Source of the DNA: Verrucomicrobiota bacterium
Lineage (GTDB): Bacteria > Verrucomicrobiota > Verrucomicrobiia > Chthoniobacterales > JAFAMB01
NCBI GenBank assembly: GCA_019239825.1
Contig: JAFAZK010000056.1
Location: 1-64,000 of the forward strand
Reading direction: 5' to 3'
DNA length: 64,000 nt
This document shows positions 3,286 through 64,000 of this stretch, in pieces (position 1 is the stretch's first letter; each line of letters begins with the position of its first letter). The notes beneath the pieces were generated by a model. It ran no database searches, had not been told where the DNA came from, and saw only the letters and a list, made by a program, of their open reading frames with translations. The position numbers and the translations under genes were made by a program.

Positions 3286-3460
3286 GATGTGAAAGGTGAA
3301 AGATGATGGGTGGGGCTTCGACAACCTAAAGCCATGCGAAACGTCATTGTCAGGGTGGTCGGACCAAGCGCCGAATCGCCGGCGAGCCTGAAGTCGATGG
3401 TCTATAGCGAGCCTATCCGAGAGGCCAACCTGTTACCTTTCACTTTTCACCTATCACTTC
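3286..3460. repeat. inverted pair of heptamer-period repeats
   Basis: GTGAAAGGTGAAAGATGATGG (3289-3309) and TTTCACTTTTCACCTATCAC (3438-3457) are opposite-strand versions of the same TCACNNN heptamer repeat, about 130 bp apart. They fill most of the 260-bp gap between the amidase stop and the sugar-binding protein. No gene is supported between them. Confidence 0.55.
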
Positions 3461-4737
3461 CCGCCGCTTCTGGCCGCACGAAAATAATCAGCCAGCCCCT
3501 GCGCAACCCCGTCGGCATATTCCGCGTAGATATTTTTGTGCATCACGCCGTTGAATTCTCGCAAGCCATCATATTCTCCGGCCTCGAATCGGTCGAAGAA
3601 GTCGCGGCTATTCATTACGTAGCACTCCACGTAAGCGACCGGGCAGTGATAGAGGCGGTTGGCCAATAGATTACGAACCCAGACATAGCCGCTGGCGCCG
3701 ACCGCGCGCGCATTATCGCTATTGTAATGGTAGGCGGGCAATTTAGTGGTGTCGGAAAGGGAATGAGCGATGCTTTCAGCGATACCCAGCTCTTCGTCGA
3801 AGGATTGGCTCAGCAGTTTCAGAAGCATCTGATAACGAACGTCAGCGTAGGCCAGTTCGGGTTCAGCGTAAGCGCCGTTTACGATCAAGTGCAGATGGTC
3901 GATGTCGGTCAAAGTAGGGTTCGCAGGGTCACCCCAAGGCTCCGCGTTAAAGTGAAGGCAAAGAGTGAGGTCCGGCTTCAATGTATGGTTGACGCGCCTC
4001 GCTCTTTCGTGAATCTCAGCGACTCTGTAGAAAAGACGTTCCGCCTCCCACGCGATCGAATGCTCCTTTTCCGGGTCGGCCGGACCCTCGTAACTGCGTA
4101 AGATGGGATGCACCCCGCGTGCTTTCAGAGAAGCGCGTGCCTCGGCATGGAGATCATCGGCACGCAACGACGTGACTGGGCCTGGCTTTGAATGAACGAA
4201 AACGACCTTGGCGCCAAGTTCTTCCAGTCGGGGCGCTAAACGTTTCGCGGTTTGCAGAGTAAGATCGCCTTCCTTGACCGGTTCGGCGTTCCCGATCTGG
4301 AACCATCGTTCCTCCATTTTTGCCCACGAGCCGCCCAGATGACCCGGATCCAGGGCGATAGTTACCCCGGCCAGAGGCTGATCCTTGTCCGCCGGAAGCG
4401 TTTTCGGGTCGTGCCAGTATTTCGCGAATGGCTGTCCTTTGTCCTTTGCGAACTTGAGCTTTAGCCGGTGTTTGGTCGAGGTCTGAATTTCTGCGTAATC
4501 AGGCTCCACCGTAATCCATTTTTGAGCCGTGCCGCCTGGCGCGTACACATCGTTTAAGAGGTGAAGAAATCGGTCGTGAGTGATTGTTCCTTGGAACTTT
4601 TGGAGTCCGTCCCAGTCGGGCGGCCCGCTGAGCGGGGTTAGAGGATCGGCCATGGCGGCAGTTAGCATGCCGGCTTCGACCAGGAGCAGGAGGACGAAGA
4701 ATTTGCAAACGCGCAGCGCGAACGAGTCGCCCAACAC
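3454..4737 (-). CDS. secreted N-acetylmuramoyl-L-alanine amidase (Amidase_3 fold)
   Basis: This zinc hydrolase is predicted to cleave the bond between MurNAc and the stem peptide in the periplasm. The Amidase_3 core starts at VTIALDPGHLGG, whose His is a zinc ligand. The other ligands are the Glu in PVKEGDLTL and the His in TLCLHFNAEP. A Glu in AYVECYVMNSRD matches the catalytic position. I chose the GTG at 4737 because it gives a good Sec signal (hydrophobic VCKFFVLLLLVEAGML, then an AMA-DP site). The frame stays open upstream to 5001, but that part is wholly a palindromic repeat element. The GTG itself lies in the repeat's arm. A TTG at 4734 is an alternative start. Confidence 0.82.
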   Translation of the reverse strand: MLGDSFALRVCKFFVLLLLVEAGMLTAAMADPLTPLSGPPDWDGLQKFQGTITHDRFLHLLNDVYAPGGTAQKWITVEPDYAEIQTSTKHRLKLKFAKDKGQPFAKYWHDPKTLPADKDQPLAGVTIALDPGHLGGSWAKMEERWFQIGNAEPVKEGDLTLQTAKRLAPRLEELGAKVVFVHSKPGPVTSLRADDLHAEARASLKARGVHPILRSYEGPADPEKEHSIAWEAERLFYRVAEIHERARRVNHTLKPDLTLCLHFNAEPWGDPANPTLTDIDHLHLIVNGAYAEPELAYADVRYQMLLKLLSQSFDEELGIAESIAHSLSDTTKLPAYHYNSDNARAVGASGYVWVRNLLANRLYHCPVAYVECYVMNSRDFFDRFEAGEYDGLREFNGVMHKNIYAEYADGVAQGLADYFRAARSGGK

Positions 4738-4942
4738 CTGGAGGGGAGCCGCTTTGCATTTAGGCAGTTCTGTAATTTGGCAGCGAGCGGCTCCCGGAAA
4801 CGTCCCATGGTTCTGCAGCTCTACCGACCCTCCGAAACAGAACCGCATTGCGAAAAGATGACGCTGGGCTATTCGCGGGAGCCGCCTGCTAGCCATATGA
4901 TAGAACTGCCGCGCTACAAAGCGGCTCCCCTCCAGGCGTTGG
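4731..4942. repeat. double-palindrome repeat element, GAGCCGC family, copy 1
   Basis: Outer arms CCTGGAGGGGAGCCGCTTTG (4737-4756) and its exact complement (4917-4936) enclose two smaller hairpins made by GGGAGCCGC/GCGGCTCCC. Internal blocks GCGGCTCCCGGAAACGTCCC (4787-4806) and CGCGGGAGCCGCCTGCTAGC (4874-4893) recur exactly at 32462-32481 and 32562-32581. It has no coding content and looks like a non-autonomous mobile or structured element. It abuts the amidase start. Confidence 0.85.
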
Positions 4943-22433: not shown

Positions 22434-25400
22434 TCACCAGCTCATCCTCACCCCTCCGGACACTGCGTTCGAATTATAATGGCCCCGGCCCAGCTGCCCA
22501 TCGTAACTGACATAGGTGGAAATGAAGGGAGTCCACTGGATCGACAACCCAGCGCTGATTACCGCGCTGTTATGCCCCTCCGCCGGGCCAAAAAACGTCT
22601 CGTTGGGCCCCGGAAAATCGGCGAGACCAGCGGTGATTGGTAAAGCCGAATACTTAAATTCGTGTTCCCATGTCGCTTTGATGAAGGGCACGAGAACGAA
22701 ATGCGGGGTCTGCCATCGATAATAAGCCCTGAAACCGGAATCGCTCCTCAACGATTCTTCAGAATCGGAGTGGATACTCATCGGCAATAACGAGCCGGTC
22801 TCGCTAAACCCGCTGACATACACATTCGTGTATTGTAAAGACGCGATCGGACCGATCGTTAGATCACCGGGATGAAAATCATACCCGGTGCTAACGAATC
22901 CGCTCCATTCTTCCCCATTGGTATTTCCGATGGCGTTACCGCCTAAGCCGCGCCGGTTCGAGTCGTAGCTGCTATACCCGCCGTAAACGCCTCCGTTTAG
23001 ATAGTAGGACGATCCCACGTCCTCGCGCCCCCCGGAATTGCCGGTGAAATAGGAGGCATACAACCCGCCCCGGCCGCTGTTTACAGTGATGGTGCCCGGC
23101 TGCAGATCAGTCCAGGTGTAAGTGTAATTTCCCATGACGCCAACCGCGAAATGTTCCAGGAATCGGTAATCGAAGCCGACGTCGAACCCGCTTATGGTGA
23201 AGCGATAACCTCTGGCGTTATAATCGGAGTCGGCATGCACGAAATCGCCAAAGCCGCTGGCCCACAGTCCGAAGGCAGGTTGGGCAACCGGTTGTAACAC
23301 GGGTTCAACCGGGTTCTTGGAAGTTTTACCGTCCATGGAGGTTTTTTGCAGTCCGACGATTCCACCACCTGTTGTCGGCGAATTCAGCGACCCGGCGCCG
23401 GCTCGGATTTCATCTAACCGGTTCTCTAAAGTCAGGCGCTGAATGTTAGCGTCTGAGAAACTGATCTCATAAAAGGAGGTTAGCGATTCCGGAGCAATGA
23501 TCACAAGTTCATTAGGGATGTCGAAAAAAGGCTGTGACAGAAACAGTGAGAGTAAACCGCCGAATCGCGGATTGAGCTCAGCGGCGTCCAACAATTCGGC
23601 AGAGGCTAATTCGTTAGGAATCTGGGCAAAGGACGCGAAATTAATGGTGGTAATTTTGGGCGGTAATGGCGGGCTTGGGGGAGTGAGGTTCAGGAACTCC
23701 AGATCGACCGAGTGCAAACTGTACACCAAGTCAATGGTATTGAGGCCGGGTCCGGTGGTAAACGGGTCGATAAAATGGCTGAACTCGTTTATAATCGCTC
23801 CGCCTGCTTTTACCAGAGTCAAGGTTTCGCCCGCTTTCGGCACAAAGCCCTGGCTAATTAACCGTAAAGTTCCGCCGAGGGTCGCTTCGCCGGTCACTTT
23901 TAAATAATCGTATTGGCCGGGGTTAGCGTCGGCGACCACTAATTGCAGCGTACCATTTGGGCCTTGGAAATAGTTGCCCTGCACATTGATCGGTTGGGGG
24001 TCAGCCGTCAGAATCCCGCCGGTGACAATGACATCGCCCGTGCCCAGCGCCGAAGCGTTGTCCACCACTAACGTTCCAGAATCCAAGTCAGTTCCACCGC
24101 TATAACTATTTGTGCCGCTCAATGTCAGTGTGCCCGGCCCCGATTGCACCACACTACCTTTGCCGGTAATCGCGCCGCTGAACGTGTACGCATCACTACG
24201 ATCGAAGGCCAAAATTCCATCATCAGTTACCCCGCCGCGGATACTGCCTATGGCGCCACCGTTTCCGATCTGTAGCGTGCCAGCTCTGATGGTTGTGCCA
24301 CCCGTGTAGGTGTCGTTGGCGGTCAAGATAGTCGTGCCTTTGCCCAGCTGTTCAAACGAACCGGCGCCGGAAATGCGCCCAGTGAAGGTATATGTGTCCG
24401 AACGATCGAAAGCGAGGACTGCGTTGTCGGTCACATTCCCGATGATCGAGCCGGTCTTGCTCCCGTCACCAATTTGCAGCGTACCGCCGCTGACCGTCGT
24501 GCCGCCGGTGTAAAGGTTAGTGCCGGTTAGGATCTCTGTCCCCGTGCCGATCTTAATTAGAGAGATGTTGCTCGCGTTGTTCTGGCCGATGATACCACTA
24601 AAAATGTCGCCTTTACTGTTATCCTTGCCAACCGTAAGCGTTACTGTAGTCGTCGCGCTATTGATGACCGAGCCGTTGCCGGTCAGTGAGCCGATCAGGT
24701 TACTGAAGCCGTTCAGATCAAGTGTTGCGCCTGCATCGACGATAAACTGGGAATTGGGACTGAACCCGTTAGCCGACCCCGCTTGTAGAATACCTGAGCT
24801 AACCGTGGTAGCACCCGAATAACTGTTAATGCCGCTTAAGGCGGTTTGACCGGTTCCAATCTGTTCGAATGCACCCGTTCCGGAAATGCTGCCGCTAAAG
24901 GTAAACGCGTTAGAATGATCAATGGCAAAGGCCGCATTATCGATCACAACACCTGCAATTGAGCCGGTAGTCCCGCCGTTGCCGAGTTGTAGTGTGCCAC
25001 CACTGACGGTGGTGCCGCCAATGTAGGTATTATTCCCGGTCAGGATCAAAGTGCCCGTGTTGGTCTTGACGATCTCACCGGGACCGACGATTGGGGCCGC
25101 GATCGTGGCGGTCACGTTCGGGTCAATATTAACGATCGTTCCGCCGCTGCTGCTGGTCTGAGTTGCCGTTAGCGCAAAGGAGCTGCTGCCAGCAGTGATC
25201 AGGTAACCAGTGGTCACAAATTGCATCCCAATTATGTTGATATTGCTACCCAAAGTTACGGTTCCGGCCGTTCCTTCGAAAATGGCAAACCCGCTTTGCC
25301 AGTGTGTATTCACTCCCCCATCCACGGTAGTCCAGTTAGTCGTGGCATTATCCCAGGTGCCCGAGCCACCGTGAATGGCGCCGTCCGCCACGGTGTTGGA

Positions 25401-28400
25401 CCCATCCCAGAACTGGTCCGTGAATCCGCTAGCGGAAACTAGTAGGTTGATCTGACCGGCCTGACTGGTTTGCAACAACAGATCAGAGGCGGTGAACCCC
25501 GTTGGCAACGTGCCAAAGTTGAGCCCGTCGTTAGTCAGACTTCCGGTGTAGTCGAACAACCGATAAACCCCTTCGCCGAACCCGCCGACATTAGTGATGT
25601 TCAGTGTCCCGGCCAAGGTCAGGTTACCATTGACGTGCACCAGATCGTTAGTTCCGTTCCCGACTACATTGGGGGTACCAAGCAGAAAGTTCAGGACTGA
25701 AGTCGAATTCAAGGTCAATGCACCAACGGTCAACGTTCCTGGGGTGCTTGATGCCGGCAAGCCCGGCGAAAAGATAGCACCCATGTTAATCGTGACCGGC
25801 CCACCAATGGTCCCGTTACCGGCGAGGGTCGCTCCCGAAGCCACGGTGACGATGGTCAATCCCAGCGGACCGGTCACCTCCAAGGTGCCACCGTTAACAT
25901 TAGTCGCGCCGTTATAGGTGCTCGTACCGCTCAGTACAGTCGTACCGCTCCCATTCTGAGTGACGGAGCCGGCGCCCGAGATAGCGCCGGAGAAATTGTA
26001 GGTACTCGATAGATCAAAGATCAGAGATCCGTTATCCATGACATTCCCGGTGATCGTGCCGGTAGTACCGCCATCACCGAGTTGCAACGTGCCGGCTGCG
26101 ATGGTGGTCCCCCCGCTGTAAGCGTTGGTGCCGGTTAGAATCAGGGAGCCGGAGCCAATCTTGTTGAGCCCTAACGCGCTGGCTCCGTCAGTAAGGGTCC
26201 CGCTAAAAGTGGTGCTATTAGTGGTCCCATCGGGACCGACTGATAAAGTCGCGGCGCTTGAGCCGTTGTTGGTGACGTTGCCGCCGCCCGCGAGCGACGC
26301 GATCGTGCTGCTAAAGCCATTTAAATCCAAAATCGCCCCGGTAGCCACCGAGAACGCGGAGTTCGGACTGAATCCAGTGGTTGAACCAGCCTGCAGCGTC
26401 CCAGCGCTCACCGTGGTGGTGCCCGAATAGGAGTTGTTGCCGCCTAAGTTCGTCGTGCCGGTGCCTTCTTGGAGCACGTCGCCGCCGCCGAAGATGTTTC
26501 CACTAAGGCTGAGCGCGTTACTGCGATTGAACACCAAGAGGCCGTCATCTTCCACCATCGCCGTATCGGAGATCGAACCGGTGGTTCCGCCATTGCCCAA
26601 TTGAAGCACCGTGCCTAGAGAAATTATGGTTTCACCGGAGTAAGTGTTCGCGCCGGTCAGAATCCATGTTCCACTCCCGCTCAAATCCAAGCCTACGTGA
26701 CCGTTTCCATCGCTAATCACGCCGCTAAAGGTGGTGGTGCCACTATTTTCGACCGTCAAAGCTAGCGTGACGCCCGTACTATTCGTGACGAGGCCACCGC
26801 CTGAAAGCGGGCCAATGGTGCTATTAAAACCATTCAAATCCAAGGTCGTGCCGGTGTTCACGATGAAGGCGGAATTGGGGCTAAATGCCGTGCTCGATCC
26901 TGCCTTTAGGGTACCTCCGGTCAGGGTTGTACTCCCTGAATAGCTGTTATTACCCGTTAAAAGCGTGGTACCCCCAAGCTGGGCGACGATGCCAATACCA
27001 CTGATGTTGTTGGCAAGCGTCTGGCTTCCATTAAAATTGAAAAGTAAGGCGCCATTGTTTGTAATGGCGCCGCTGCCGGCCGTGCCATTGTTGGTCGCGT
27101 CGCCGAGCTGCAGAGTCGATCCGGAGTCGATGGTAACGGTACCGAAGTCCGTCGTACCATTCAGATCGACCGTACCTGCGGTGGAGAAGGTCACAGTTTG
27201 CGTACTAAGACCGCTGATACTGCTGTTGACCACCATGCTCTGGCCAGAGCTGGGGCCGAAAGTCAGTACGCCGTTGGTTCCGACAGTAATGCCGGCCGCT
27301 GTCAAGGAGCCGCTGTCCAGGTTGAGGGTACCGGTGCCGCCTGTTCCCCCCACGCCGCCAGCTCCGCCGCCAGCAGTGCCGTTGGCGCCGTTGCTACCGC
27401 CCACGGTGATGTTGCCACTGGTAAAGATCCCCCCGCTCAAAGTGAATGTGCCACTGCCGCCGAAGCCGCCATTACCGCCATTACCGCCATGCGCGGACGA
27501 AGAACCTGGTCCCCCCGTACCGCCGTTACCGCCCAAGAACATGTCGAGGATGTTCAGGCTCCCGCCACTTAATGTGATTGTGCCAGCGCCGCCAGTGCCG
27601 CCGTTGCCGCCAGGTCCCCCGGGCCCGTTACCCGATCCGCCATTACCGCCGTTACCGCCCAAGATGGTGTTGCCCAGCACCGAGGCGTTCAGGGTCCCGC
27701 TAGTCAATGTGATGGTGCCGCTGCCGCCGCTGCCGCCGTTCCCGCCAGCAGCGCCAATTCCGCCACGACCGCCATTGCTGGCGTTGCCGCCTAAAGTGAT
27801 GCCTCCGCTAAGGGTCAGGGTCCCGCCACTCAACGTAAGTGTGCCAATGCCGCCGTTGCCGCCGCCACCGCCCATCGCATGGGACCCCAATCCGCCGCTA
27901 CCGCCGTTGCCGCCCAAAATCAGGTTCTGACCGCCTAGGTCCCCGTTACTCAATGTCAATGTGCCGCTGCCGCCGTTGCCGCCGTTCCCACCAAAGGAGT
28001 TGGTCCCGGCGCCACCGCCATTGCCGCCTCCGCCGCCCAAGTTGATGTTGCCGCCGCCCGCGCTCCCGCCACTCATTGTGAGTGTGCCGTTGCCACCGTT
28101 GCCGCCGTTCCCGCCAGGGGCCGTTATGGAACCATTACCGCCATTACCGGCGCTGCCGCCCAACGTGAAGTCGTTGGTCACGTCAAGTATTCCGTCGCTC
28201 ATTATCAGCGTGCCGCCCGCACCGATCAGGCCGTTGGTGCCGCCCGCACCTCCCAGGTTAAGCGACAGCGCTAGGGCGTTGTCACCGGTCGAGATCAAGG
28301 CAGTACCGCCATTAGCGATGAAGGCCGCTGTCGACTGGGTCGGCACTCCGTTCGTCCAGTTGGAGGCGTTGGTCCAATCTCCAGTTACGACGTTCCAATT

Positions 28401-28712
28401 CGTCTGAGCATTGGCCGCTAACTGAGTCGCAAGAAATAGCCAAGCGGCTACCAGGACGTGAGAGGTGAGACGTGAGAGGTGAGAAGTGAAACGGCCGTGA
28501 TGCCCAGTGAAAAGTGAGCCGTGAAAGTTGAAAAGTGGCTGGGGTGATTTATCGGTTCGGGTTAACCATCGATTGGTCCCTGTTGAAACCGGTAGAAATC
28601 GGTGAAACAGGAGGACTGACCCGAGGATGTGGGGCAGGAAGTGGAGAATCGTTTCGGTCTTCCTCATGCGCTGGACGTGTTGGTTTCCGTTTCTTAAGCT
28701 CTCGCGGATCAC
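22434..28712 (-). CDS. giant autotransporter with beta-strand repeats
   Basis: A 2092-aa surface protein. In order: a hydrophobic signal (HVLVAAWLFLATQLAANA-Q, about 85-103); a TNWNVVTGDWTNASNWTNG opening module; a Gly/Asn-rich zone of GGNGG repeats (about 185-465); some ten autotransporter-associated beta-strand repeats (GGTLQLGNGGTTG and FSPNSAFxVxxGxxLDLNGF types, about 540-1570) interrupted by a second WDNATTNW module; and a C-terminal 12-strand barrel (about 1800-2092) beginning FGLWASGFGDFVHAD and ending in VSGGVRMSW with the terminal aromatic. The passenger probably forms a beta-helix. The start is uncertain: GTG 28712 and ATG 28667 both read through heptamer repeats before the signal. 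No protease or adhesin domain is recognisable. Confidence 0.88.
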   Translation of the reverse strand: MIRESLRNGNQHVQRMRKTETILHFLPHILGSVLLFHRFLPVSTGTNRWLTRTDKSPQPLFNFHGSLFTGHHGRFTSHLSRLTSHVLVAAWLFLATQLAANAQTNWNVVTGDWTNASNWTNGVPTQSTAAFIANGGTALISTGDNALALSLNLGGAGGTNGLIGAGGTLIMSDGILDVTNDFTLGGSAGNGGNGSITAPGGNGGNGGNGTLTMSGGSAGGGNINLGGGGGNGGGAGTNSFGGNGGNGGSGTLTLSNGDLGGQNLILGGNGGSGGLGSHAMGGGGGNGGIGTLTLSGGTLTLSGGITLGGNASNGGRGGIGAAGGNGGSGGSGTITLTSGTLNASVLGNTILGGNGGNGGSGNGPGGPGGNGGTGGAGTITLSGGSLNILDMFLGGNGGTGGPGSSSAHGGNGGNGGFGGSGTFTLSGGIFTSGNITVGGSNGANGTAGGGAGGVGGTGGTGTLNLDSGSLTAAGITVGTNGVLTFGPSSGQSMVVNSSISGLSTQTVTFSTAGTVDLNGTTDFGTVTIDSGSTLQLGDATNNGTAGSGAITNNGALLFNFNGSQTLANNISGIGIVAQLGGTTLLTGNNSYSGSTTLTGGTLKAGSSTAFSPNSAFIVNTGTTLDLNGFNSTIGPLSGGGLVTNSTGVTLALTVENSGTTTFSGVISDGNGHVGLDLSGSGTWILTGANTYSGETIISLGTVLQLGNGGTTGSISDTAMVEDDGLLVFNRSNALSLSGNIFGGGDVLQEGTGTTNLGGNNSYSGTTTVSAGTLQAGSTTGFSPNSAFSVATGAILDLNGFSSTIASLAGGGNVTNNGSSAATLSVGPDGTTNSTTFSGTLTDGASALGLNKIGSGSLILTGTNAYSGGTTIAAGTLQLGDGGTTGTITGNVMDNGSLIFDLSSTYNFSGAISGAGSVTQNGSGTTVLSGTSTYNGATNVNGGTLEVTGPLGLTIVTVASGATLAGNGTIGGPVTINMGAIFSPGLPASSTPGTLTVGALTLNSTSVLNFLLGTPNVVGNGTNDLVHVNGNLTLAGTLNITNVGGFGEGVYRLFDYTGSLTNDGLNFGTLPTGFTASDLLLQTSQAGQINLLVSASGFTDQFWDGSNTVADGAIHGGSGTWDNATTNWTTVDGGVNTHWQSGFAIFEGTAGTVTLGSNINIIGMQFVTTGYLITAGSSSFALTATQTSSSGGTIVNIDPNVTATIAAPIVGPGEIVKTNTGTLILTGNNTYIGGTTVSGGTLQLGNGGTTGSIAGVVIDNAAFAIDHSNAFTFSGSISGTGAFEQIGTGQTALSGINSYSGATTVSSGILQAGSANGFSPNSQFIVDAGATLDLNGFSNLIGSLTGNGSVINSATTTVTLTVGKDNSKGDIFSGIIGQNNASNISLIKIGTGTEILTGTNLYTGGTTVSGGTLQIGDGSKTGSIIGNVTDNAVLAFDRSDTYTFTGRISGAGSFEQLGKGTTILTANDTYTGGTTIRAGTLQIGNGGAIGSIRGGVTDDGILAFDRSDAYTFSGAITGKGSVVQSGPGTLTLSGTNSYSGGTDLDSGTLVVDNASALGTGDVIVTGGILTADPQPINVQGNYFQGPNGTLQLVVADANPGQYDYLKVTGEATLGGTLRLISQGFVPKAGETLTLVKAGGAIINEFSHFIDPFTTGPGLNTIDLVYSLHSVDLEFLNLTPPSPPLPPKITTINFASFAQIPNELASAELLDAAELNPRFGGLLSLFLSQPFFDIPNELVIIAPESLTSFYEISFSDANIQRLTLENRLDEIRAGAGSLNSPTTGGGIVGLQKTSMDGKTSKNPVEPVLQPVAQPAFGLWASGFGDFVHADSDYNARGYRFTISGFDVGFDYRFLEHFAVGVMGNYTYTWTDLQPGTITVNSGRGGLYASYFTGNSGGREDVGSSYYLNGGVYGGYSSYDSNRRGLGGNAIGNTNGEEWSGFVSTGYDFHPGDLTIGPIASLQYTNVYVSGFSETGSLLPMSIHSDSEESLRSDSGFRAYYRWQTPHFVLVPFIKATWEHEFKYSALPITAGLADFPGPNETFFGPAEGHNSAVISAGLSIQWTPFISTYVSYDGQLGRGHYNSNAVSGGVRMSW
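28461..28538. repeat. heptamer-period repeat within the autotransporter leader
   Basis: GTGAGAGGTGAGACGTGAGA-type heptamers continue for nearly 80 bp. On the minus strand this reads in frame as the Ser/His/Leu/Thr-rich stretch immediately before the hydrophobic signal core of the autotransporter. Confidence 0.7.
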
Positions 28713-29111
28713 CCTTTAGCCACGTTCGTGTGCGCACCTGAACTATTATTCTCGGTAATTAACTGTGGATCAGGAGGTAACAACTTCTCGTCGAAATTGC
28801 CAAAAGAACCTGGGGTTACGAATGGATGGCCCGTCTTCCCGCGTATCAAAATGTCAATGAGCGGTCAAGCTTAGGAATGGGTGGGTTCTGGAGCGCGAGG
28901 GGTGAGAAGTGAAAGGTGATTGGTGATTTGTGATTGGTGTTCCCCGCGATCGCGCGTTCTTCCTTGAACGGGTCGAGGAATCGGAACAATAAGGCCTGAG
29001 CGCGGTCGCTACACCTCCCTCGGAGCCAAGAGCTCCGCGATTTTGCAACTCCGTGAGTTTCCGGAAGTGACGATCAGTGCTGCGGATCTGTTTTAGTCCA
29101 AAAGCCGAAAA
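28713..29111. other. gap with heptamer repeat, no gene
   Basis: This 399-bp gap lies upstream of the autotransporter and downstream of a small minus-strand gene. A heptamer repeat (GTGAGAAGTGAAAGGTGATT, then GGTGATTTGTGATTGGTG) occupies 28900-28941. I see no convincing promoter or terminator. Confidence 0.5.
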
Positions 29112-30855: not shown

Positions 30856-31139
30856 AACGGCCTCGTGATTCGTGAATGGTGATTAGTGATTGGTGGGACG
30901 CCGGGCTGCGTTCGTGGGCGGGCAAGGCTCCGTAACGGCCCAAAAAGGTCAACGGCGGAACCAGTCTCATCTCGCCACTTGGTTTGCGACGCCTCAAAGC
31001 TGCCGAGCCGCACACCCACGGCTCGGCACTCGGTTAGGCCTCTCGTGCAAAATTTAGCTCGATACGAAAGGGCCCTTTCAAAGGTGTCAGGCTATCCGGG
31101 AGCCTCGCCCCACCATAGAGGGGTGTTGCAATTTTCTCC
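30856..31139. mobile_element. MITE-like element, degenerate copy 2, plus heptamer repeat
   Basis: The right end CGGGAGCCTCGCCCCACCA (31097-31115) is intact. The left end near 30891-30937 is degenerate (TGGTGGGACG, then GGGCGGGCAAGGCTCCGTAA). The inner pair TGCCGAGCCG (31002-31011) and CGGCTCGGCA (31020-31029) is preserved. A heptamer repeat (GTGATTCGTGAATGGTGATT) precedes it at 30864-30895. The element sits between the two binding-protein genes. Confidence 0.75.
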
Positions 31140-32354
31140 ATGACGAACCCGTCCCTCTGCGAAATCCCAAATGACATGCGGGAGCCTTGCCCTACCAATT
31201 GTCGACGACCAAACGTCTTTCACCAATCACTAATCACCAATCACCAATCACTTCTCGTGCTCCTCGCCTTCCTTCTCCTTTTCGCCCATGCCGCCCTCGC
31301 CCAAATCAAAATCGGCGCGGTAAGCTGCATCTCGGGTCCGCTTTCAACCTTTGGGGTATCGAGCATCCGCGGGACACGAATGGCGATCGAGGAGATCAAT
31401 GCGAAAGGGGGTGTGCTAGGGCAATCGATCGAACTAGTTGTCGACGACAACGGTTCAAAGGCTGGAGAGACGGCCAGGATCGCCCGAAAATTCTTGTCCC
31501 AGGACCACGTGGTGGTGATCCTCGGCGACCTTACCTCGTCGTCGACAATGGAAGCGGCGCCTTTAGCTCAGGAGGCCCATGTGCCGTTGCTTACCCCGTC
31601 TGCAACTGCCGTCTCGGTCACTAAGGTGGGTGACTATGTTTTTCGAAGTTGCTTTACTGATCCGTTTACCGGTCGGATTATGGCGCGGTTTGCTGTCGAC
31701 CATCTGCATGCTCGGCGCGGAGTTATCCTTACCGACGTTAAACAAGACTACAGTATTGGCGTAAGCGCTGAATTGGGCGCCTATTACCGCCAACAAGGAG
31801 GGCGAGTTTTGCAGGAATACAGTTTCAGTAGCGGTGATACTGATTTTCGAGCACAGCTCTCATCGCTAAAAAGCCTGCAACCCGACGTGGTTTTTGTGCC
31901 AGCGTATTATACCGAAGCCGCCCTGATCTTAAGAGAGGCCCGCCAACTGGGCATAAAAGCGGAATTTGTAGGCGGTGAAGGTTGGGATAGTCCCTCCTTG
32001 ATCTCCGTTGCGGGGAAGAGCGCCGATGGAAGTTATTATACGGATCATTTTTCGCCGGATGACCCGAACCATTTGGTCCAAACCTTTGTCCAGGCATATA
32101 AAACGAAGTACGGAACCGCTCCTGATGCCTTATCGGCATTGTGGTATGATGCCGCCGGGTTGGTGGTCGATGCAATCCGCCGAGCCGGCTCCCCCGACCC
32201 GGCCAAAATTAGAGATGCGCTTGCTGTAACCAAGAATTTCCCCGGTGTGACGGGCAATATCTCACTGGACGAACAACGCAATGCCAGTAAGCCGGGTGTG
32301 ATCGTCACCATCGAAAACGGTCACGTCAAGATGGTGGAGAGGGTCGAACCGTGA
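31140..32354 (+). CDS. branched-chain amino-acid ABC transporter binding protein 2
   Basis: A second LivJ-type binding protein (404 aa from ATG 31140; 393 aa from ATG 31173), clearly a tandem paralogue of gene 1: both carry SSG-D-DFRAQL, REARQLGIKA or REGRQLGIKA, and GGEGWD/GGDGWD. The hydrophobic signal is LLVLLAFLLLFAHAALA-QIKIG. Everything between either start and this core is repeat DNA: a piece of the MITE right end near 31179-31198, then heptamers (31221-31256) read as HQSLITNHQSLL. A downstream GTG at 31257 would give a very short n-region. The start is therefore uncertain, the rest secure. Confidence 0.9.
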   Translation: MTNPSLCEIPNDMREPCPTNCRRPNVFHQSLITNHQSLLVLLAFLLLFAHAALAQIKIGAVSCISGPLSTFGVSSIRGTRMAIEEINAKGGVLGQSIELVVDDNGSKAGETARIARKFLSQDHVVVILGDLTSSSTMEAAPLAQEAHVPLLTPSATAVSVTKVGDYVFRSCFTDPFTGRIMARFAVDHLHARRGVILTDVKQDYSIGVSAELGAYYRQQGGRVLQEYSFSSGDTDFRAQLSSLKSLQPDVVFVPAYYTEAALILREARQLGIKAEFVGGEGWDSPSLISVAGKSADGSYYTDHFSPDDPNHLVQTFVQAYKTKYGTAPDALSALWYDAAGLVVDAIRRAGSPDPAKIRDALAVTKNFPGVTGNISLDEQRNASKPGVIVTIENGHVKMVERVEP

Positions 32355-56631: not shown

Positions 56632-56985
56632 TGAATTTCGAAACGATGACATTTTTGGTAGGGCGAGGCTCCCGAATGACCGAGAGTTGTTTCCGGAGCT
56701 TGGGAGGGTTTCAGGTTGCTGATAGTGTTAGGTCGACGGGCGCGCCGAGCCGTTGGGCCGCGGTGTGCTACCGGCCTGACCGCGATTCGAAACCGCACAT
56801 CGTTTGTTGGCATGGACAGGGCTCAGTCCGGCGGCTCGGCGAGCGAATCGGACCTGGACATCAGGTGGCCTGGACTAACCAGCAGCCTTGCTCAAATCAA
56901 ATGACCGTTTGGGAGCCTCGCCCCACCAAGGTGGCCGTGACTTCTCACCTCTCACTTCTCACTTTTCACCTCTCACTCCAAGGAT
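56632..56985. mobile_element. MITE-like element, copy 4 (56656-56928), plus heptamer repeat
   Basis: TTGGTAGGGCGAGGCTCCCG begins at 56656 and TTGGGAGCCTCGCCCCACCA ends at 56928. The inner pair CGCCGAGCCGTTGG (about 56740) and CGGCGGCTCGGCG (about 56830) is present. A heptamer run (TTCTCACCTCTCACTTCTCA, then CTTTTCACCTCTCAC) fills 56941-56976 directly upstream of the next start. No gene. Confidence 0.8.
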
Positions 56986-59066: not shown

Positions 59067-59821
59067 GCTCGCACGAAGAACACTCAGAGACGCCTGAAAT
59101 GGAAGACGCGGCGCCGCAGTCGCGGGGCGAGGGCGATGCGGCGATCAATGATCCGGCCGTCCCTATCGTCGGAGACGGAGCGGTTCCACGTTGGTTGATA
59201 GGCGTGATCTTCTTCGGCCTTTTCTGGTCAGGTGCTTATCTTTTCTCTTACAGTGGAGGTTTCAGCGCTGACGTTTTCGATTATTTGCCGAAGTTCGGCC
59301 CACTCAGCTCCGGGCCCCAGTCTGCTCCCGATCCGAAAGTGATCGGGAAAGCTCTTTTCTCGCAGAATTGTGTCACCTGCCATCAAGCGACAGGCCTGGG
59401 TCTACCCGGTCAGTACCCACCGATAGCCGGTTCCGAGATCGTGTTGGGTGACGCCACCAATCGTTACATCGCGATTGTGCTGAAAGGACTACAAGGGCCC
59501 ATAACCGTAAAGGGTGAAAGCTTTAATAATTCCATGCAGGCCTGGGAAGGGCAATACACGGATGCCCAACTTGCTGCCATCCTGACCTATGAACGTTCCG
59601 ATTGGGGCAACAATGCGCCGCCGATCCCGCCTGAAGCAATAAAACAGGTGCGCGAGGAATTGAAGGATCGAAAAGAGCAATGGACTTACGCAGAGATCAT
59701 GAAGATGCCGGGCAAAGACGTCGCTAAGGCCGGAGGGTCCGCACAACAGGCGGCGAATAAACCGGCGCCGGGTGCATCCCCCGCTGCCAGCGCTTCACCG
59801 GCTGCTCCTCAGCAAAAATGA
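59063..59821 (+). CDS. membrane-anchored monoheme cytochrome c (CcoP-position)
   Basis: A 252-aa protein: acidic N-terminus, one span (about 42-65), one heme domain with QNCVTCHQATGLGLPGQYPP and Met in FNNSMQAWEG, then a charged linker and an Ala/Pro/Ser tail. It occupies the place of CcoP but has one heme rather than two; the domain resembles the cytochrome c fused to caa3 CoxB. As the neighbouring CoxB lacks such a domain, this may be its separate electron donor. Starts in the ATGA overlap. Confidence 0.88.
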   Translation: MSSHEEHSETPEMEDAAPQSRGEGDAAINDPAVPIVGDGAVPRWLIGVIFFGLFWSGAYLFSYSGGFSADVFDYLPKFGPLSSGPQSAPDPKVIGKALFSQNCVTCHQATGLGLPGQYPPIAGSEIVLGDATNRYIAIVLKGLQGPITVKGESFNNSMQAWEGQYTDAQLAAILTYERSDWGNNAPPIPPEAIKQVREELKDRKEQWTYAEIMKMPGKDVAKAGGSAQQAANKPAPGASPAASASPAAPQQK

Positions 59822-60266
59822 TGGTGGTGCCTAACATAATTGGTGCGGTGGAACCGATCTTTGGTGGGGCAGGACCTATCTTGGAAGTGCCAGAACCTAT
59901 CTTTGGTGGGGCGAGGCTCCCGAACGGCCAAACAGCCTTGCAGAAACCCATGATTAATGTGGCCCTTGCAGGTTACCGTAAGAGACTCGCGCGCCGAGCC
60001 GTTGGCCTAGTGTGTGCCACGTTTGCCGGTCCGTCATTCTCCATCGTTGGAAGACATTCAGCTTCAACCGCTGCACAGCCCCCGTCCCAACGGCTCGGCG
60101 CGTCTATGGGCTTCGGTGGGATGCAAGGGCGGCACCCATCAAAGGTATCCGGAAAACCTCGTGACCGTTCGGGAGCCTCGCCCCACCAGTCTTGTGATAG
60201 CTCCTGGCCTCTGATGACAAATAAAGATTTTTTCGTACCGTACTTTAAATCCCCCGTCGTCTTCCT
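59822..60266. mobile_element. MITE-like element, copy 5 (59904-60188), with partial end repeats
   Basis: TGGTGGGGCGAGGCTCCCGA begins at 59904; TTCGGGAGCCTCGCCCCACC ends at 60187. The inner pair GCGCCGAGCCGTTGG (59991-60005) and CCAACGGCTCGGCGCG (60087-60102) is nearly perfect. Before it, GATCTTTGGTGGGGCAGGAC (59857-59876) is an extra left-end fragment. No gene is supported between the cytochrome gene and coxB. Confidence 0.85.
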
Positions 60267-61139
60267 ATGAGTTTCTGGCGATCTTCTTTTGCGCGATGCG
60301 GCTTGGTCTTGGCGGTTCTGTTAGCCGGACTTGGAACCTGCTGGGCCGATCCGCGGACGTCGAATCTTTGGTGGATGCCGGAGAACGCTAGCGAAGGGGG
60401 CGTATACATCGACCAGCTCATCTGGTTCATCCTCTTTCTTACCGGCGGTGTCTTTGTTCTCACTCAGGTCGTTTACATTTTCTTCATCATTAAATATCGG
60501 GCTCGGAAGGGTGTCCCGGCGACGTATAGCCACGGGAACAATCGATTGGAGATAATCTGGACGGCTATTCCGACCGCGATCTTCATCGGGCTGTGGGGAT
60601 ACAGCAATCATCTTTGGTGGGATGTGTTGCACTCAACTCCGCCGGCAAATTCGCTTCAGGTGGGAGTTGCGGCGTACCAGTTCGGCTTTTCTTTCCAGTA
60701 CGCCGGCACTGACGGCAAGCTTGGAAAGGCTGAGGCCAGCTTTGTTTCCAACGATAACATGTTCGGAAATGATCCGAGCGATCCTGACGCGAAAGATAAC
60801 TTCACTTCATCGGTTCTGGAGATCCCGGTCAACCGGCCTGTTCATATCCGGTTGGATTCCAAAGATGTCATCCACGCTTTTTACGTCCCTCAGTTCCGAG
60901 TTTATCAAGATATCGTACCCGGACGGATGATCGACTGGGTATGGTTCACGCCCACGAAAATTGGCAAATTTCAGCTCGCGTGTAGCCAGCTGTGTGGTTC
61001 TGGCCATTACAACATGAAGGCCGACATTGAGGTTGTATCTCAGGCGGATTTCGAGAAGTGGTATCAAGAAAAAGCGAAAGCGGTTCAACCACCGGCAGGG
61101 GCCAAACTCACGAGTGTAACCGAAACGAAAGATCAATAG
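60267..61139 (+). CDS. coxB: cytochrome c oxidase subunit II (CuA)
   Basis: A 290-aa subunit with a signal peptide (ending LGTCWA-DPR), two membrane spans and a periplasmic cupredoxin domain. CuA ligands are intact: His in DVIHAFYVPQF, then CSQLCGSGHYNM with two Cys, His and Met. It accepts electrons from cytochrome c for CoxA. It has no fused heme c domain. Ends 7 bp before coxA. Confidence 0.96.
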   Translation: MSFWRSSFARCGLVLAVLLAGLGTCWADPRTSNLWWMPENASEGGVYIDQLIWFILFLTGGVFVLTQVVYIFFIIKYRARKGVPATYSHGNNRLEIIWTAIPTAIFIGLWGYSNHLWWDVLHSTPPANSLQVGVAAYQFGFSFQYAGTDGKLGKAEASFVSNDNMFGNDPSDPDAKDNFTSSVLEIPVNRPVHIRLDSKDVIHAFYVPQFRVYQDIVPGRMIDWVWFTPTKIGKFQLACSQLCGSGHYNMKADIEVVSQADFEKWYQEKAKAVQPPAGAKLTSVTETKDQ

Positions 61140-62932: not shown

Positions 62933-64000
62933 ATGGCTGCCTATTCGCTTCCGAAAAAACTACTGCATTGGTATGCTGTGGTGGCGGCGGCTAGCGTTTC
63001 GCTCCTGATTTGTAGCGGAGGTTTGGTGACCAGCCACGAAGCCGGGATGGCTGTTCCGGATTGGCCAAACACGTTTGGCTATAACATGTTTTTGTTCCCG
63101 GTATCCCGGTGGGTGGGGGGGGTATTCTTCGAGCATACCCATCGGTTAATCGCCAGCACGGTTGGTCTACTGACGGTGATTCTCTGCATTGCTCTGTTTG
63201 TTATCGAGAGCCGGCGCTGGGTTAAAACACTCGGACTCATTGCGGTTGGCGCGGTGATCGTCCAAGGAGTTTTGGGCGGTCTGCGCGTGACCGAAAACAA
63301 CGCAGTCTTAGGTCTTTTTCACGGTTGTCTAGCGCAGAGCTTTTTCGCTTTGATGGCGACGATTGCGCTGGTTACTTCGCGCTTTTGGGAGCGTTTGGAA
63401 AGAGTGGGGACTGAGCCCCGCGCACGCGGGGCGCGGGAGCGGAAACGCAACGCCGCCCACCAATTACTAATCACGAATCACCAATCACTTCTCACGTCCT
63501 ATCGCCGCTGGGTTGTGGTCGTAACCGGCATGGTGTTCCTGCAACTCGTCCTCGGAGCTTCTATGCGTCATTCGCACGCCGGACTCTCCATCCCCGATTT
63601 TCCCTTCAATTACGGGCATTTCTTCCCGCCGTTGGATGCAGCCAGCATCGATAAAATTAATCAGGCGCGTGGCGCTGCTGCGCAGCCGTACACGTCGGCC
63701 TGGCTGATTTTGCTGCAGTATGTCCATCGGGTTTGGGCCGTGCTCATCGTTGCCGGCCTCGTTTTCACCTCGATTCGGCTGTTACGGAACCGGTTCTTAC
63801 CCCTTTTCTTCCGGCGATGTGCCAGCGTGTGGATTCTGCTGGTCTTCATCCAATTTTGCCTGGGCGCCTGGACGGTATTGAGTAATAAGGCCGCTGATGT
63901 CGCTACCGCTCACGTCTTCTGTGGAGCATTAACGCTAATGCTGGGCGTCTTGCTTGCAGTCAGCCTTAGCGGGCTGTCGCATTATAGTCACAAGGTATTA
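62933..64000 (+). CDS. ctaA: heme A synthase (CtaA/COX15 family), partial at window end
   Basis: The frame is open from ATG 62933 to the window edge (356 codons). The enzyme oxidises heme O to heme A, needed by the aa3 oxidase upstream. Two four-helix halves are seen with the four heme-binding His: FFEHTHR, LFHGCLAQ, QYVHRVWA and VATAHVFCG. Between the halves lies a basic loop (GTEPRARGARERKRNAA) followed by HQLLITNHQSLL (176-187), which is a heptamer repeat translated in frame. The 3' end is missing. Confidence 0.93.
   Translation, partial: MAAYSLPKKLLHWYAVVAAASVSLLICSGGLVTSHEAGMAVPDWPNTFGYNMFLFPVSRWVGGVFFEHTHRLIASTVGLLTVILCIALFVIESRRWVKTLGLIAVGAVIVQGVLGGLRVTENNAVLGLFHGCLAQSFFALMATIALVTSRFWERLERVGTEPRARGARERKRNAAHQLLITNHQSLLTSYRRWVVVVTGMVFLQLVLGASMRHSHAGLSIPDFPFNYGHFFPPLDAASIDKINQARGAAAQPYTSAWLILLQYVHRVWAVLIVAGLVFTSIRLLRNRFLPLFFRRCASVWILLVFIQFCLGAWTVLSNKAADVATAHVFCGALTLMLGVLLAVSLSGLSHYSHKVL
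63458..63500. repeat. heptamer-period repeat inside the ctaA coding sequence
   Basis: CACCAATTACTAATCACGAA continuing through CCAATCACTTCTC matches 31221-31256 at 34 of 36 positions. It is a multiple of three long and keeps the frame. Confidence 0.85.

Follow-up and report, generated by a model that had tools for sequence, protein, structure and literature searches.

Identification of ctaA and of its TM4-TM5 linker

The window analysed here is a stretch of 64,000 nucleotides from a Verrucomicrobiota MAG of 6.67 Mb (G000), which was compared with its three congeners (G001, G002 and G003); the four genus genomes are all fragmented MAGs. At the end of the window lies ctaA (62933-64000, plus strand), encoding heme A synthase, which runs past the window and codes for 370 amino acids in the full contig. 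The identity of CtaA was established by a Pfam match (PF02628, 111 bits, above the cut-off), by a profile search of the PDB and by a Foldseek search with the predicted structure (E 2.3e-7), the latter two pointing to 6a2j, the CtaA of Bacillus subtilis. In contrast to the profile search, a phmmer search of the PDB with the single sequence gave no match. The histidines H68, H130, H213, H215, H265 and H327 were invariant in 24 homologues. Family profile, fold and conserved histidines clearly place the protein in the COX15/CtaA family. It shares family and fold with the B. subtilis enzyme, from which it differs by a longer, array-derived linker between its halves.

The linker between TM4 and TM5 comprises 38 amino acids (63389-63502, plus strand) and was delimited by alignments and by a low-confidence segment between helices in the predicted structure (residues about 161-180). 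From the topology known for CtaA, we take it to be on the cytoplasmic side of the membrane. It contains an array of about five heptamers (TCACnnn; 63458-63495, plus strand) which corresponds to residues 176-188 and reads in frame as HQLLITNHQSLLT. A preliminary description of this DNA had placed the array in the loop that separates the two four-helix halves of CtaA and tolerates insertions, and its position in the TM4-TM5 linker agrees with this. In the AlphaFold model, the linker lies between confident helices with a pLDDT of 56-68, and the array residues are part of a moderately confident helix (pLDDT 68-86); on this model they may be other than an inert loop.

In G000 only, the same linker carries a perfect 8-bp GC palindrome (GCCCCGCG-CA-CGCGGGGC, 63415-63432), which was considered as a dispersed element and discarded, a single copy being present in 0.5 Mb of sampled genome. 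In the G003 linker (L130:11929-11944), a second dispersed repeat, TTCGCTAAAGCTTCGG, was observed; it is read as FAKASEDKS and has six exact copies in G003.

A dispersed family of heptamer arrays

The match between 63458-63493 in ctaA and 31221-31256 reported in the preliminary description was confirmed, with 34 of 36 positions identical, the best 36-mer score in 20 Markov-1 random sequences of 64 kb having the dinucleotide make-up of the window being 22. The next-best copies of the ctaA 36-mer in the window matched at 31 (28904) and 28 positions (30860), both on the minus strand. Rather than a unique 36-mer that is present twice, the two sequences are members of one repeat family. The repeat unit consists of TCAC and a variable trinucleotide, chiefly CAA, TAA, TTC, CTC or CTT, giving the general form (TCACnnn)n. 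Period 7 was dominant among tandem 4-mer chains and TCAC arrays were the commonest class in the window, where six of them have at least four units, including the one inside ctaA.

Outside ctaA, an array at 31220-31256 (plus strand) occupies the 5' end of a gene for a periplasmic binding protein. An array at 30865-30889 (minus strand) is directed towards the stop codon of the gene upstream and forms an inverted pair with 31220-31251, on the other side of the intergenic region. Another (28902-28933, minus strand) lies 5' of the minus-strand gene 22434-28667, and a TTC/CTC-type array (28458-28489, minus strand) was found close to the 5' end of the minus-strand ORF 22434-28712, the start of which is uncertain. 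A further TTC/CTC-type array (56945-56976, plus strand) ends 9 nt ahead of the ATG of a COX1-family gene, and the orthologous site of G003 holds AAA/TAA/CAA-type units in the same register. The array at L142:4417 was considered as an orthologue of the array at 56945 and was discarded as unsupported by synteny. Finally, a short array with three clear units (3427-3457, plus strand) is found where the minus-strand gene 3454-4848 ends; the orthologous G003 array has five units. The ORF 22434-28712 encodes 2092 amino acids and displays many 9-nt tandem repeats at 27466-28149.

A genome-wide search recovered the family as a whole. The pattern ATCACNAATCACNAATCAC had 43 matches in G000 and 14, 53 and 73 matches in the three congeners, while the reversed control pattern gave no match. 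The same pattern search found no copy in the seven other genomes of the family, and the pattern was likewise absent from almost every other genome of the order. When the phylum was scanned with patterns of this type, 18 of 388 genomes had any match, often homogeneous arrays at few places. Named records with similar arrays were all soil Verrucomicrobiota MAGs. The dispersed mixed-unit form of the TCAC arrays looks genus-centred, with sporadic arrays elsewhere in the phylum. An unbiased sample of G000 (L097, L099, L103, L105 and L113) also contained further dispersed tandem heptamers (GATTACT and AATGACA), dispersed octamers (CGCAAAGA and ACTCCATC) and inverted repeats (GGGAGCCTCGCCCC and GCGGCTCCCCTCCA).

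Conservation and age of the ctaA array

The array was found at the same site and in the same register of ctaA, gap-free, in G000, G002 and G003, and about nine decayed heptamers are still in register in G001. Measured from SRFW to RRW, the linker comprises 38 residues in G000, 46 in G002, 50 in G003 and 58 in G001. A shorter loop in relatives had been anticipated and was indeed observed: in the five other family members with a readable ctaA, whose genomes are devoid of the repeat, the linker has 15-18 amino acids and the array is absent, so that the loop is not conserved where the repeat is missing. Four species carry the array at the orthologous site, and the insertion is therefore older than the radiation of the genus; comparison of the orthologues places it later than the divergence of the genus from the other family members.

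Divergence of ctaA at fourfold sites ranged from 0.26 to 0.63 across the four species. Among G000, G002 and G003, the halves of CtaA flanking the linker differ at 6-9% of their amino acids, compared with 26-45% at fourfold sites. Because the flanks are conserved and the frame is open in all four genus members, ctaA is considered functional, and its linker, including the array, is very probably translated in the four species. This pattern of purifying selection makes it very probable, as had been proposed, that the repeat can become protein. Spacer types were found to be swapped in the same register at orthologous arrays, including that of ctaA (CAA-type versus TTC/CTC-type). The gene would represent a dated case of intergenic repeat DNA that has become stably integrated into a respiratory assembly enzyme.

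Other apparently translated arrays

In G000, G002 and G003, the N-terminal extension of an ABC permease (PF00528) contains an in-frame array, which is decayed in G001; the array-bearing loci are L086:2178-3017, L131:3276-4091 and L145:3231-4046, all on the minus strand. The permeases of the other family members start without the array. In G002 and G003 the array reads STNHQSLITNHISL, and in G000 it is made of TTC-type units.

In the gene at 31257, which belongs to PF13458, the array is located at the 5' end (window 31140-31300; L155, L156). Its start is ambiguous in G000, where the gene finder picked the GTG at 31257, just after the array, and an in-frame ATG is located upstream at 31140. In the G002 orthologue, an upstream start codon reads through the array as MRTVYRLFIAGLSPLTSHLSLLTILLFAQPGVAQ, which is plausibly a signal peptide with the array as part of its hydrophobic core. 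The G003 orthologue probably also translates the array in its signal peptide. There are at least two parallel cases of array capture in the same genus besides ctaA. For annotators, this means that N-terminal starts beside such arrays are unreliable.

Orientation and reading frame

As 7 modulo 3 equals 1, a heptamer array passes through every reading frame. On the antisense strand (GTGA), each unit puts a TGA in one frame in turn and no frame outlasts 21 nt. On the sense strand (TCAC), TCACTAA is the only common unit that is not open, giving a stop in one frame of three. The ctaA array is open because only antisense arrays have TGA in all three frames, the sense strand being largely stop-free. 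All 7 of the 112 arrays examined for their context (see below) that fall in called coding regions are indeed sense-oriented. The rule can be stated more generally: a 7-nt repeat visits all frames, and if one strand of its unit contains TGA, the repeat can enter genes only in the other orientation.

Every open frame of an array gives the same 7-residue period, the unit TCACCAA yielding SPITNHQ. The preliminary description had noted that the arrays in ctaA and at 31221 share frame and peptide. The ctaA array is in frame, but since the heptapeptide recurs identically in whichever frame is open, the shared peptide is not independent evidence and adds nothing beyond the DNA match.

Intergenic setting and polarity

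The context of the arrays was analysed in fetched stretches of DNA from three species, mostly array-centred, using a simple gene finder, and start positions are approximate. Among 112 arrays, 99 were intergenic, 7 were located in called genes and 6 at contig edges. The earlier label of an intergenic-type repeat fits this majority, but the copy at 31221 is not clearly intergenic, given its translation in the G002 (and probably the G003) orthologue. In 66 of 89 arrays, the gene-proximal end was the 3' end of the TCAC strand (the 5' end in the other 23; p=6e-6), with median gene distances of 22 nt for the 3' end and 275 nt for the 5' end. Arrays were aimed at starts and at stops about equally (52 versus 47). 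Among 40 intergenic arrays aimed at the stop of an opposite-strand gene, 18 overlap this stop at -4, -8 or -11; these overlaps, in which a unit of the array supplies the stop, follow from the 7-nt arithmetic by which an array visits every frame. In mRNAs ending in an array, a Shine-Dalgarno-like GAGGTGA overlaps the stop codon, possibly by coincidence.

Inverted pairs of arrays are present in many intergenic regions. Some are only 22-28 nt apart (L149:5242-5355 and L152:3988-4093 in G002, L127:3992-4066 in G003) and could form long intergenic hairpins. The inverted pairs were considered as ends of one mobile element, an explanation that was rejected as the interiors between pairs are unrelated; several of these interiors hold a second inverted repeat, TTGGTGGGGCGAGGCTCCC.

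Orthologous intergenic arrays often kept their position while unit number (10 versus 5, 4 versus 7, 3 versus 5) and spacer type changed, whereas the array block of ctaA is gap-free in three species. In gap-free orthologous arrays, the TCAC core differed at 10 of 130 sites and the spacers at 41 of 95, a comparison biased by the ascertainment of arrays through their TCAC core and based on few array pairs which are not independent. The contrast may reflect selection on the core or replacement of units, and selection is not claimed.

Proposed history of the ctaA array

We consider it likely that a dispersed heptamer array was captured long ago as a tolerated part of the linker, and that its units still turn over within the limits set by the reading frame. 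The (TCACnnn)n arrays are normally intergenic, and one copy would have arisen in the TM4-TM5 linker of ctaA before the four species diverged. Its survival would have been allowed by an orientation without TGA stops, by a frame that stayed open and by the lack of conserved residues in the loop. From that time on, the array would have been translated as a spacer rich in S, T, N, Q, H and L, extending helix 5 or forming a flexible linker, most likely without a function of its own. Units may turn over by slippage or by conversion between arrays, NAA and TTC/CTC spacers being swapped, and in ctaA a change would survive only if its net effect leaves the frame intact. The linker has also gained other sequence, including the second dispersed repeat of G003.

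The preliminary description had concluded that the repeat is mobile or expands. Variation was indeed seen in unit types and in the number of intergenic units, but the ctaA copy, being orthologous in four species, is not evidence of current mobility. Among the syntenic pairs read, no clean pair of empty and filled sites was found within the genus, and neither a mobile element enclosing the arrays nor any common enclosing element was detected. Mobility by transposition is not supported.

The TCAC core appears better conserved than fourfold sites, which would be unexpected under pure neutrality unless units are rehomogenised. An alternative explanation is that the core, recurring every 7 nt, is a selected nucleic-acid signal, recognised by a repeat-reading RNA or DNA protein or acting in an anti-Shine-Dalgarno-like manner, and that the ctaA copy was kept for it. 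The low divergence of the core relative to the spacers, at a fourfold divergence of 26-45% in ctaA, and the consistent polarity of arrays at gene boundaries speak for such a signal. So does the unit TCACCTC, which we take to be the anti-Shine-Dalgarno stretch in the 3' tail of 16S rRNA, its complement GAGGTGA being Shine-Dalgarno-like. We nevertheless regard this explanation as unlikely: besides the ascertainment bias and the few, dependent pairs mentioned above, spacers change by whole-unit type, as unit replacement predicts, the core has decayed in the ctaA of G001, and starts and stops are targeted about equally. It appears likewise doubtful that a core with 7-nt spacing would be selected at gene boundaries, read by a protein or the ribosome, and kept even where it is coding. 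If true, one sequence would serve two codes in ctaA, the permease and the signal peptide.

Alternatively, local slippage in ctaA could have produced the array without any contribution from the intergenic arrays, which it would then resemble by chance or convergence. The presence of other heptamer and octamer families in the genome makes this possible, but the identity of 34 of 36 positions with another locus extends to the order of the spacers (NAA...TTC), no other class of array is as common in the window as the TCAC arrays, and the linker array and the repeat family share the same genus distribution; a local birth is thus very unlikely. Phase variation, in which slippage of the 7-nt unit turns ctaA on and off, has in its favour that a single unit change in coding sequence would shift the frame, but it is the most improbable explanation, since no frame-shifting change in unit number was seen between close relatives (the array being gap-free, constant in unit number and in frame in G000, G002 and G003), the units are imperfect, which lowers slippage, and ctaA adjoins cytochrome oxidase genes, not surface genes.

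Relation to known repeats

The STRR (short tandemly repeated repetitive) heptamers of Nostoc and Anabaena form tandem arrays scattered between genes. Compared by description only, they are heptanucleotide tandem arrays like the TCAC arrays, with other sequences and in another phylum. The TCAC arrays find their nearest description in the TAACTGA direct repeats, which are intergenic in marine Beggiatoaceae, Cyanobacteria and Bacteroidetes (MacGregor, 2015; PMC4679880). The few TAACTGA copies within ORFs are read from the strand that is free of stops and encode mostly terminal parts of proteins, one of them the start of an ABC permease (PMC4679880). Both families consist of 7-nt direct tandem units dispersed at many unrelated loci, mostly intergenic and near gene starts in a consistent orientation, with one strand stopped in all frames and with rare, peripheral coding copies, including the N-terminus of an ABC permease. 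The TCAC family differs from TAACTGA in its heptamer (a fixed TCAC core with a variable spacer) and in its phylum. Moreover, the strand facing the start codon is stop-free in TCAC arrays and is the one with stops in TAACTGA arrays. Unlike the latter, TCAC arrays also aim at stop codons, and the ctaA copy is internal and common to four species. No earlier description of heptamer repeats in Verrucomicrobiota was found in the open-access literature. (TCACnnn)n is a new heptamer family, and the turning of such repeat DNA into protein has precedents in other bacteria.

Rickettsia palindromic elements are MITE-like palindromes of about 150 bp that are inserted in frame in unrelated housekeeping genes (Ogata 2000, 2002; PMC10969869). 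In-frame insertion of this type was observed here in ctaA (four species), the ABC permease and the periplasmic binding protein, and the ctaA array resembles these elements as in-frame repeat DNA kept as an apparently translated and tolerated segment. It differs from them in being a non-palindromic 7-nt tandem of about 38 bp, a single direct array without the inverted terminal repeats and common interior of MITEs; the interiors of the inverted array pairs are unrelated. As a minor observation, a 21-nt tandem repeat (TTGGTGGGGCAGAACCTATCT) was noted in the window at 59840-59912, surrounded by an ORF (59818-60270) that was not called as a gene and adjoining inverted-repeat copies of CGTTCGGGAGCCTC at 59913 and 60166.
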